Of a stretch of DNA of 64,000 nucleotides, positions 29,396 to 46,166 are shown piece after piece; position 1 is the first letter of the stretch, and every line of letters starts with the position of its first letter. The stretch comes from Hydrogenophilales bacterium 16-64-40 (GTDB lineage Bacteria > Pseudomonadota > Gammaproteobacteria > Burkholderiales > Thiobacillaceae). Made by a program: the position numbers and the translations under genes. The notes below the pieces were generated by a model. That model had not been told where the DNA came from and made no database searches. It saw nothing but the letters and a program-made list of their open reading frames with translations. The DNA is taken from contig NCGX01000006.1 in assembly GCA_002256995.1 (NCBI GenBank), positions 62,001 to 126,000 of the forward strand, given 5' to 3'.

Positions 29396-32359
29396 TCAGC
29401 CCGTCGCGTCGGGTTCTCCCAAACGCGCCAGGATCTGTTGGCGTGCGCTATCGCGCAATTGCAAGGCGGCCTGCCAGGCTTCTCCTACTGGAGATATCGG
29501 TTTGCTGATGTAAACCTTGAGGGCGCTGTAATGCGGGCGCCTTGACTCGCCGCGCAGCAGGGTGCGGGTGCCAACCAGGCAGACCGGCAGCACCGGCACA
29601 CCGGTTCGCGCGGCGAGCATGAACGCCCCCATGCGAAAAGGCAGCAGGCCGGGCTCGCCGCGGAAGGTGCCTTCGGCAAAGAACACCATCGATTCGCCGC
29701 TGCGGACCCTTTCCTCCAGCGCTCGCGTGTCCTCGGCGCCACGCGCGCTGTCGAAGCGTTCGACGAAGGCGCTGCCGAGCCGCCGCAAGGGGATGGCGGC
29801 GAGCGGCTTCTTCAGCAGTTCCTGCTTGGCGACATAGGCAAAGCGCGGCGGCAGCACCGCAGTGAGGACCAGGGCATCAAGGAAGCTGGCATGGTTGGCC
29901 ACCACGATCAGCGGCCCGTCATGGCCGGCCAGCTGTTGCCGGCCTGTCACCTGCGGCCGCAGCCCGGTCAGCGCCAAGGCCAGCTGCGCGCATGCCTTGG
30001 CGATGCGGCGGCGCAGGCCGAGGCTGGGCAAGATCGCGATCAGCAGCCAGGCCAGCGGCACGATGAGCAGGTAGACCGCCCGGGCCCAGGCCGCCCACAC
30101 CGCATCGGCCGCGCGCCCGAGCCGCTGGCCGGCACCGGCGGCCAGGCGCAGCCACTGCTGCCAGGGCGGACGCTGCGCGGCGAGCAGTTCGCCGCGCTCG
30201 TAGCGCTCGCGGCAGGCAGCGCGGCGGACCTTGCCGCTGGAGGTTTTGAGCACCGTGCGCGGCGGCGCCAGCACGATGTCGTCGGCCGGCATGCCGATCA
30301 GGTCGACGGCGAGGCCATTGATTTCCGCCAGGATGCGCGCGCGGTTCGCTTCCGTGTCGTCGCGGATTTCGGCCAGCACCACCAGCCGCTCGGTGCCGCC
30401 TTGCGCGTCGCTGGCAGGGAACACCACGACGCCGCCGGGACGCACGCCGGGCAGCCGGCTCACCGCCGCCTCCAGTTCCTGCGGATGGAGGTTATGGCCG
30501 CCGCGGATGATGATGTCCTTCTCGCGCCCGGTGAGGTAGAGCTCGCCTGCCGCGAGATAGCCGAGGTCGCCGGTATTGAGCCAGCCGTGATCGAACAGGG
30601 ACTGGCTCGCATCCGCGTTGTGAAAGTAGCCGCGGGTTGCCGATGGCCCCTGGAACTGCACGCGCCCCAGCCTGCGTTCGGGCAGTTCGCGGCCGCCTGC
30701 ATCGACGATGCGGATGGCGTGGTCCGGCAAGGCCAGTCCGCAGGACACGATGCGCTGGGCATGGGCATCGTCGGCCTCGGCGGGGCGGGCGATGCCGCTC
30801 GCCGACAGCGCGGCGCGATCGACGCGGTCGATCAGCGGACCGCGTCCGAGCGGTGGAAAGGTCAGTCCGACTGAAGACTCCGCCAGGCCATAGACCGGGG
30901 TCATCGCGCTGGCACAGAAACCATGGCGGGCGAAGCGCGCAGCGAAGCCTTCGATGGTGTCGGGGCTGACCGGCTCGGCGCCGTTGTAGGCCAGCCGCCA
31001 CTGGCTCAGGTCCAGCCCCTCGAGATCGCGCTCGTCGAGCTTGTTGAGGCACAGCTCATAGGCGAAGTTGGGCGCCGCCGAGACGCTGGCGCGATGGCGG
31101 TGGACCGCCCACAGCCAGCGCCCGGGCCGCGCCAGAAAGGCCAGCGGCGACATCAGCACCAGGCGGAAGCCGACATACAGGCTGCCCATGCAGGCGCCGA
31201 TCAGTCCCATGTCGTGATACAGCGGCAGCCAGGACACGAAGGTGTCCTTCGCGGTGACGCCGGAGGCGCGCGCCATGGCGTTGAGGTTGGCAAGCAGGTT
31301 GGCGTGCGAGAGCACCACCCCCTTGGGGTTGCCGGTGCTGCCCGAGGTGTATTGCAGGAAGGCGGTGTCCTGCGGTTGCGGCAGGGGCGGCAGCTGCGCC
31401 GTGGCGGCCCTGGACAGATCGGTGACGGTTTGCACCCCACGCAGCGAGGGACACTGCGCGCGCAGCAGATGACCAAGCGGCTTGGCCCGCGCGTCGGTGA
31501 TCAGCAGCACCGCCCCGGCATTGGCGACGATGCCGGCGATGCGGCGCATGTGGTCCTCGATCTGCGACGGGCGCGCCGGCGGGTACAGCGGCACCGGCAC
31601 GCAGCCGGCGTAGAGCGCGCCGTAGAAGGCGGCGAAAAATTCGCGGCCGGTGGGGAGCATGATGGCGACGCGGTCGCCAGTCATCGGGCCAGCGGCGACG
31701 CGGTCGCCCGTCATTGGACTTGGCGCGATGAGGTCGCAAGCGTGATCGCTCCGGCCAGGTTGTAGGAGCGGCGCCCTCGCCGCGATTGCCGGCGATTGCG
31801 CGGCGCCGGCAATCGGCCCGGGGGCGGGCCTCCTACGGTCCATCTCGTACGCCGCTGCAAGCGGCAGGCCATGCTCGCGCAGCCCCGCCGCCAGCGCCAA
31901 CGCCGCGGTCTGCAGCTGGCGATAACTGATGTCCTCGCTGTGCCCTGCCTCGCCCTCCAGCGTAATGTGCACCCGATCGCCGTGCTGCTCGACATGCCAG
32001 TCGAGCAGCTCGACCAAGGTGAGAAGCGTGTCTGGCGGTTGTTCGGGCGCGGCCGCCTCCATCGCCGCGGCCGGCCCCGGCGCGGGCGCTTCAACGGGCC
32101 CTGCCACGCCCATCTGGCGCAGCAGGTCGCGCGGGGTTTCGGCCTCGGCGAACGCCGCCTCGGCCAGCCGCACCCCGAGTTCACGCTCGATGCGCGCGAG
32201 CAGTTCCACCCGCGCCAGACTGTCGAGACCGAAGTCGCGCTCCAGTTCATGGTCCAGGCCGAGGCGGTCGATGCCGTTCGCGCCCGGCCGCAACTCGCGC
32301 GCGAGGCCGCGGACGATGTCGAGCAGCTGCGTCGTGTCCGCTTGAGTCAAGTTCTTCAT
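29396..32359 (-). CDS. ACP / fatty acyl-AMP ligase / PlsC-type acyltransferase fusion
   Basis: A 987-residue three-domain enzyme. Residues 1-90 form an acyl carrier domain with the phosphopantetheine serine in DFGLDSLARVE (S47). Residues 120-720 form an adenylation domain of the FAAL type (TSGSTGNPKGVVLSHANL, SWLPLYHDMGLIG, NTGDLGYL). After a hydrophobic segment, residues 790-980 form a glycerolipid acyltransferase with NHASFLD (HX4D) and FAEGTFRG. It could activate a fatty acid, hold it on its own carrier and pass it to an acceptor lipid. Residues about 175-232 are an insertion made of a REPIN and a 10-residue tandem repeat, placed before GDRVAIMLPTG. Acceptor and physiological role are unknown. 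Confidence 0.88.
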   Translation of the reverse strand: MKNLTQADTTQLLDIVRGLARELRPGANGIDRLGLDHELERDFGLDSLARVELLARIERELGVRLAEAAFAEAETPRDLLRQMGVAGPVEAPAPGPAAAMEAAAPEQPPDTLLTLVELLDWHVEQHGDRVHITLEGEAGHSEDISYRQLQTAALALAAGLREHGLPLAAAYEMDRRRPAPGPIAGAAQSPAIAARAPLLQPGRSDHACDLIAPSPMTGDRVAAGPMTGDRVAIMLPTGREFFAAFYGALYAGCVPVPLYPPARPSQIEDHMRRIAGIVANAGAVLLITDARAKPLGHLLRAQCPSLRGVQTVTDLSRAATAQLPPLPQPQDTAFLQYTSGSTGNPKGVVLSHANLLANLNAMARASGVTAKDTFVSWLPLYHDMGLIGACMGSLYVGFRLVLMSPLAFLARPGRWLWAVHRHRASVSAAPNFAYELCLNKLDERDLEGLDLSQWRLAYNGAEPVSPDTIEGFAARFARHGFCASAMTPVYGLAESSVGLTFPPLGRGPLIDRVDRAALSASGIARPAEADDAHAQRIVSCGLALPDHAIRIVDAGGRELPERRLGRVQFQGPSATRGYFHNADASQSLFDHGWLNTGDLGYLAAGELYLTGREKDIIIRGGHNLHPQELEAAVSRLPGVRPGGVVVFPASDAQGGTERLVVLAEIRDDTEANRARILAEINGLAVDLIGMPADDIVLAPPRTVLKTSSGKVRRAACRERYERGELLAAQRPPWQQWLRLAAGAGQRLGRAADAVWAAWARAVYLLIVPLAWLLIAILPSLGLRRRIAKACAQLALALTGLRPQVTGRQQLAGHDGPLIVVANHASFLDALVLTAVLPPRFAYVAKQELLKKPLAAIPLRRLGSAFVERFDSARGAEDTRALEERVRSGESMVFFAEGTFRGEPGLLPFRMGAFMLAARTGVPVLPVCLVGTRTLLRGESRRPHYSALKVYISKPISPVGEAWQAALQLRDSARQQILARLGEPDATG
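31664..31723 (-). repeat. In-gene 30-bp tandem duplication
   Basis: A 30-bp unit starting GGCGACGCGGTCGCC occurs twice at 31664 and 31694, with about 25 aligned bases nearly identical. It encodes PMTGDRVAAG then PMTGDRVAIM in the adenylation domain. The last copy is the expected GDRVAIMLPTG core strand; the first is the duplicate. Confidence 0.85.
31762..31836. repeat. REPIN (inverted REP doublet) inside a coding sequence
   Basis: Two 33-bp REP units in opposite orientation, separated by 9 bases. Both begin GTAGGAG, have a 5-bp hairpin with a 4-base loop, and end CGATTGCCGGCG. The hairpins differ (CGGCG/CGCCG in one, GCCCG/CGGGC in the other) but each pairs perfectly. Total length is 75 bp, exactly 25 codons, so the host frame stays open. 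Confidence 0.92.
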
Positions 32360-45987: not shown

Positions 45988-46166
45988 TCGCGATCCATCG
46001 TCCCGAGGACGGGGCTCCTACAAAAAGCCGCCGCCCCATGTAGGCGCGTCTGAACGGCAGACCGCGGCGCCCTTGTAGGAGCGGCGCCCCCGCCGCGATT
46101 TTCGTGCCCTGGCCAAACCGCAGCCCTCGCGACCTCCACCCATCGCCCCGAGGGCGGGGCTCATAC
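45988..46166. repeat. Cluster of four REP palindromes
   Basis: Units with the GTAGGAG head lie at 45988-46021 (minus), 46040-46066 (plus, head GTAGGCG), 46075-46099 (plus) and about 46128-46166 (minus, head GTATGAG). Each has a GC hairpin. The third matches the unit at 31762 over its first 22 bases except one loop base. The last two units face each other like a REPIN. They fill most of the intergenic region 45937-46184. Confidence 0.85.

Follow-up and report, generated by a model that had tools for sequence, protein, structure and literature searches.

A REPIN carried in frame within the gene of an ACP-FAAL-acyltransferase fusion protein

Palindromic elements inside and outside genes

REPINs, in the portion of the 2011 description on which we draw (PMC3116915), consist of two inverted REPs and a spacer that fold as one; they are present in many copies, and a RAYT is encoded in the same genome. 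They were described there in extragenic space. REPs within genes have been reported, too. Sections of a 2013 study (PMC3733652) describe REPs of both the GTAG and the CGTC kind that lie entirely within open reading frames (ORFs) of several species, over half of them as dimers or groups and encoding 20–30 aa. Some genes contain two such inserts, and in two Xanthomonas recB genes different REPs occupy approximately the same site. Many of the genes hit function in DNA synthesis and repair, and it is proposed in the same sections that linkers or loops tolerate the inserts. The Rickettsia palindromic elements are another example: palindromes inserted in frame in genes (Ogata 2000, 2002, as reported in a passage of the review PMC10969869).

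Here we describe a REPIN that lies in frame within an enzyme gene. The gene belongs to Hydrogenophilales bacterium 16-64-40 and lies in a stretch of DNA of 64,000 nucleotides that was analysed as a whole, and that we call ‘the window’. The gene and the parts of the element, in window coordinates, are:

29396..32359, minus strand: host gene, an ACP-FAAL-acyltransferase fusion of 987 aa (from the ORF list, Pfam and fold matches)
31762..31836, minus strand: the REPIN, 75 bp, codons 175-200 (from its inverted arms, genome family and folding)
31762..31785, plus strand: core of one REP unit, with GTAG head and stem GCGGCG/CGCCGC (from the unit scan)
31813..31836, minus strand: core of the other REP unit, with GTAG head and stem GGCCCG/CGGGCC (from the unit scan)

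In its inverted pair of REPs, its joint fold, its copy number and its RAYT, this element resembles the REPINs of PMC3116915 as set out in the portion cited, but whereas those were found outside genes, this copy is part of a coding sequence. Because intragenic copies of REPs have been published (PMC3733652), we treat location as a tendency of REPINs rather than as a defining property. With the intragenic REPs of the 2013 sections, our locus shares both superfamilies, GTAG and CGTC, and the position within an ORF. It differs in its target, a FAAL rather than one of the many DNA synthesis and repair genes, and in offering a series of orthologues in which the element is retained, partially lost or totally lost; its loop contains a tandem unit as well. 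With the Rickettsia elements, as that passage of the review presents them, it shares in-frame insertion of a palindrome within a gene under purifying selection, in a different group of hosts; the likeness is one of description—it works as they do—and we do not class it as one of them.

The in-frame REPIN of the FAAL gene is a well-resolved new case, then, of a phenomenon already described in other bacteria. Its less ordinary features are the layering of the hinge in which it sits and the invariance of third codon positions in its hairpins, the latter recognized post hoc and in a small sample.

The element, its family and its transposase

The two arms of the REPIN, 31762-31794 and 31804-31836, are 33 nt each, 79% complementary, and separated by a spacer of 9 nt. 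An earlier note on this DNA, made from the sequence alone, had claimed just such a 33+9+33 inverted pair at 31762..31836, and comparison of the arms bears it out. In each arm a GTAG head and two further bases precede a 6-bp stem that closes a 4-nt loop, and GATTGCCGGCG follows; both units thus have the GT(A/G)G head and ensuing imperfect palindrome by which REPs are defined. The same note placed the element in frame, with no added stop, at residues ~175-200, which agrees with the coordinates of ORF 29396-32359(-) (residues 175-200). It also held that the arms differ at five paired positions in a compensated way; compensated they are, but the differences amount to three base pairs (six bases) and one loop base, instead. 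The 75 nt fold as a unit, into two REP hairpins and an 11-bp stem that joins them. As RNA, this fold has a calculated energy of -50.6 kcal/mol (z -3.64), and as DNA a z of -4.10; in neither case did any of 200 shuffles do as well. Four of the REPIN's six frames are free of stops, and so insertion in frame is not improbable in itself.

The element has many relatives. In its own genome, the search for the unit that the earlier note had proposed as a check produced at least 52 family matches (E<=0.01) on at least 47 non-overlapping stretches, 40 of 92 candidates having been scored and some stretches being two halves of one doublet; the REPIN is, like those described before, one of many copies. 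Matches at E<=0.001 occur in at least 26 of 56 genomes of the genus, in each of which up to 16 candidates were scored. When 48 units were collected without requiring their stems to pair, 39 were found to pair at all six stem positions, and 47 at five or more.

The stems also covary, and the claim that selection for folding is visible holds up in this respect. Among 25 of the 26 distinct 24-mers (the one omitted looks like a chance match), 96.7% of stem pairs are standard, compared with 72.4% in shuffles; 29 stem cells are changed on both sides, compared with 11.2; and the covariation score is 0.517, compared with 0.128. None of 500 shuffles scored as high on any of these. Coarser measures are less distinct: four pairs with change on both sides, a number reached by 107 of the 500 shuffles, and seven further pair types, reached by 23.

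Two other arrangements of REPs deserve mention. A second doublet in the window, at 45997-46099, has 27-nt arms with 49 nt between them, and lies between genes, as REPs ordinarily do, with a listed ORF on either side. At G000:C6, near a contig end, three REPs 108 bp apart make up a small direct array.

A RAYT was expected elsewhere in the genome, and one is present. The genome has three genes for Y1-type transposases, and the one on contig C50 scores 143.5 bits to the NCBIfam model for REP-associated tyrosine transposases (NF047646; cut-off 80) and is flanked on both sides by REPs of the REPIN's family. No family unit was found in the examined flanks of the other two (93.1 and 75.1 bits), one flank being shortened by a contig end. 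Y1-type genes occur in 40 of the 56 genomes of the genus. It may have been the C50 RAYT that moved the REPIN.

The host enzyme and its hinge

According to Pfam, the host protein consists of a PP-binding domain (residues 31-81), which is the phosphopantetheine attachment site, an AMP-binding domain (223-579; E 4.1e-68) and an acyltransferase domain (803-928). A fold search with a model of its structure (mean pLDDT 81.7, pTM 0.65) returned FAALs as the top solved matches, 3pbk, 3kxw and 7r7e, the best being 3pbk_A (E 2.0e-48, TM 0.78 by target length, rmsd 9.4). The AMP-binding domain and this fold together mark the protein as a FAAL. Outside the REPIN and the hinge, dN/dS is 0.20-0.31 in all 21 pairs of orthologues, a sign of purifying selection, and the enzyme looks intact.

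The REPIN encodes a part of the protein that the model renders poorly. pLDDT falls below 50 at residues 169-222, between the helix at 146-162 and the strand at 230-234, and this hinge is probably disordered, as modeled. The alignment behind the model comprised 35 of the 80 relatives considered below, every one of them without the insert, and so low pLDDT is weak evidence of disorder here; it would be expected anyway of an insert that the aligned relatives lack. As far as adenylate-forming enzymes in general are a guide, the hinge loop probably lies on the protein surface, remote from the active site, and it may be functionally neutral.

Measured from AAGL to RV, the hinge is 75 residues long in this protein, but no longer than 15 in any of 80 relatives from a named collection, these being the best 80 of at least 592 confirmed, a choice from which very near genomes were possibly left out. 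Lengths of 6-14, which are found in 16 of the 80, are at least partly artefacts of alignment. At the hinge site, a REPIN-encoded segment was found neither in any of the 80 relatives kept nor in three outgroups belonging to the order; an alignment to homologues had been suggested earlier as a check. The hinge has further layers:

31679..31858, minus strand: net insert, approximate, amounting to 60 codons when set against relatives with a hinge of 15 residues, its exact borders uncertain (from the hinge comparison and model)
31664..31723, minus strand: a 30-bp unit that encodes GDRVA, present twice, the copies being 80% identical (from repeat comparison)
31837..31853, minus strand: upstream flank of the REPIN, taken in the gene's own direction, 17 bp; in congeners its equivalent is also found with REPs that lie elsewhere than in this gene (from flank searches)

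Orthologues were sought in 56 genomes of the genus, most of them drafts in many contigs and 27 of them >=90% complete and <=5% contaminated. Eight matched at E<=1e-60. One, G035, was rejected as an orthologue at 31% identity, and seven remain, that of the present genome included; a fragment in G030 (64% over 833-986) fell below the cut and is left out of the count, and the gene of G002 is split across two contigs. Between HITL and PTGREFFAAF the hinge ranges from 180 to 510 nt, and in all seven it is a multiple of three and stop-free. Four of the seven—our genome, G002, G071 and G075—have a complete REPIN at the same site, and outside the REPIN their genes are 83-90% identical in DNA. G006 retains the first REP and then diverges, so that half a REPIN is left, and G001 and G067 have none. 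The REPIN insertion, as these sequences indicate, is old within the genus. The earlier note had thought it recent, and a recent insertion in a single strain is rejected by the series of orthologues.

Absence of the REPIN need not mean that it never arrived. Trees built from the remainder of the gene place G067 together with G006 and G071 (support 98 for aa, 100 for DNA), and G067 retains a stretch that resembles the flank just downstream of the REPIN; nested as it is among carriers, its lack of the element looks like loss. The aa and DNA trees disagree on the order within this group of three, and support at the deeper nodes of the genus is 56-90. G001 branches nearest the outgroups.

Other material has entered the same loop. 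The copy of the 30-bp unit at 31664-31693 holds the GDRVA with which the conserved strand opens, and on our reading of the hinge alignment all seven orthologues have one or more extra copies, partly degenerate. Within this array, in G006 and G071, is a palindromic element of 138 bp with a CGTC end that encodes 46 residues; only one of its six frames is open, and that is the one used in the FAAL gene. Among the matches listed for a 263-bp query that includes it (at most 13 candidates scored per genome), at least 40 of the 56 genomes are represented, mostly over the element part, and by this measure the 138-bp element is dispersed in the genus. For the 30-bp unit a dispersed origin was considered and rejected, since beyond about base 190 the query matched FAAL genes only, among the matches listed; the unit looks to be of local origin.

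We think it very probable, overall, that the locus goes back to an ancestral in-frame insertion of a REPIN into a loop of the FAAL, which was tolerated, and to which additions and losses came later. A REPIN, which is not autonomous and is believed to depend on a RAYT transposase for its movement, would have entered the FAAL domain in frame, after the helix and before the ‘GDRVAIMLP’ strand, in an ancestor common to five or more species of the genus. The ~60 extra residues would have been tolerated as a flexible linker in an enzyme still under purifying selection. Tandem copies of the 30-bp unit would have accumulated in the same loop, which in the line leading to two of the species also took up the 138-bp CGTC-type element; later, one lineage would have lost the REPIN, and another half of it. 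Changes that broke the frame were presumably removed by selection, and the order of events was presumably the one given.

Could the ORF be a pseudogene or an artefact of annotation, a fortuitous fusion across an intergenic REPIN? Other ORFs that span REPs in this genome do look spurious. A scan of 28 loci, with a codon-position heuristic, gave 12 spanning ORFs, and none of the 10 submitted to Pfam had a hit; within the limits of this test, no other in-gene REP was found in the genome. Six of the spanning ORFs were checked, and in all six there is a coding-like ORF on the opposite strand, the REP lying beyond its end in four and within its first residues in two. Against this, in seven of seven orthologues the gene reads as a single open frame that takes in the ACP, the hinge and the FAAL domain; its dN/dS is low, as given above; and its model matches solved FAALs. 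That it is an artefact is hardly credible. The earlier note called an in-frame REPIN unusual, and within this genome the limited test of 10 ORFs revealed no other, but in-frame intragenic REPs have been published from other bacteria (PMC3733652).

Conservation within the REPIN and beside it

In the four complete copies—G006 is left out, and G002 contributes its first 754 residues only—the hairpins vary little. Of the 42 columns in their codons 3 are variable, compared with 15 of 30 for the spacer and 478 of 2064 elsewhere in the gene. Third codon positions vary in none of the 14 hairpin codons but in 280 of 688 codons elsewhere; among 19627 random pairs of 7-codon windows, 0.2% are as low in third positions, and 3.2% in all columns. 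Four-fold columns are invariant in 11 of 11 cases in the hairpin codons, in 11 of 13 in the REPIN, and in 204 of 334 in the rest. The product of same-codon frequencies is ~1e-4, but for four codons among the fourteen (CTA, and AGG at three places) there were two comparisons or none. Third positions this constant are not what one expects of a pure passenger, and they count against an entirely neutral account.

The hairpins might act in mRNA or DNA while also being translated, and the REPIN be kept by selection on the nucleic acid. The invariant third positions and four-fold columns and the codon-frequency product favor this, as does the variable spacer between the hairpins. But the third-position test was conceived after the alignment had been viewed, and covers 14 codons in four sequences; the contrast weakens when all columns are counted; and the REPIN as a whole is no more alike between our genome and the other three carriers (81-83% identity) than is the rest of the gene (83-89%). 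The element has been lost in G067, moreover, and half lost in G006, and gene conversion would yield an identical pattern. We regard selection on the nucleic acid as unlikely.

Gene conversion itself, in which other REPs of each genome homogenise the hairpins without these having a function in the gene, is likewise unlikely, if slightly less so. Among units collected by a detector that requires pairing, no stem types are more frequent than the two found in the REPIN (15 and 10), and a REPIN at C17:69604 is 89% identical to it across all 75 nt. Yet all four complete copies have the same unlike pair of stems in the same order, and the spacer varies, though conversion should homogenise the spacer, too.

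It is very unlikely, we think, that the inserted peptide was selected as a useful linker. Much of it (RRPAPGP, AARAPLLQ) recurs in the four complete copies, but only 15 of the 25 residues encoded by the REPIN are invariant, compared with 521 of 688 in the rest of the gene, two species lack the REPIN, and the segment is of low confidence and probably disordered in the model. Residues less conserved than those of the rest fit selection on the hairpins, or homogenisation by REPs, better than selection on the peptide.

The flanks raise another question. Together with a REP, the 17-bp upstream flank recurs outside the gene at four sites, G002:C5, G006:C4, G006:C36 and G071:C113, all of them in genomes that carry the FAAL gene. 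At G006:C4 the shared flank is longer than 17 bp, and at G002:C5 28 bp of the downstream flank recur as well, with one mismatch. G006:C36 and G071:C113 have similar surroundings and are probably one old site. If the translated REPIN were still mobile as a hairpin, with stems maintained at the level of nucleotides, copies might have been seeded from it outside the gene, and the four sites would be such copies. We find this decidedly unlikely. Weaker, partial or gapped matches to the upstream flank occur in G004, G007, G014 and G023, where no orthologue was found, and at G002:C56 a different REP is followed by the downstream flank, too; these observations are equally consistent with an incoming unit larger than the REPIN. 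Just upstream of the insert, at 31854-31880 of the window, the codons for HGLPLA resemble a short palindromic unit that occurs beside REPs in G002, G004 and G014; relatives have a similar GL..GL stretch, which bears on whether this region was inserted or is native.

The account we prefer remains that of an old in-frame insertion, tolerated by its host and altered since. Its orthologues make up a natural series—the REPIN being complete, halved, lost, or joined by a second element—of a protein that absorbs mobile palindromes and keeps its frame in doing so. The series allows a direct test between neutral filler, retention at the level of the nucleic acid, and re-seeding from the genome.
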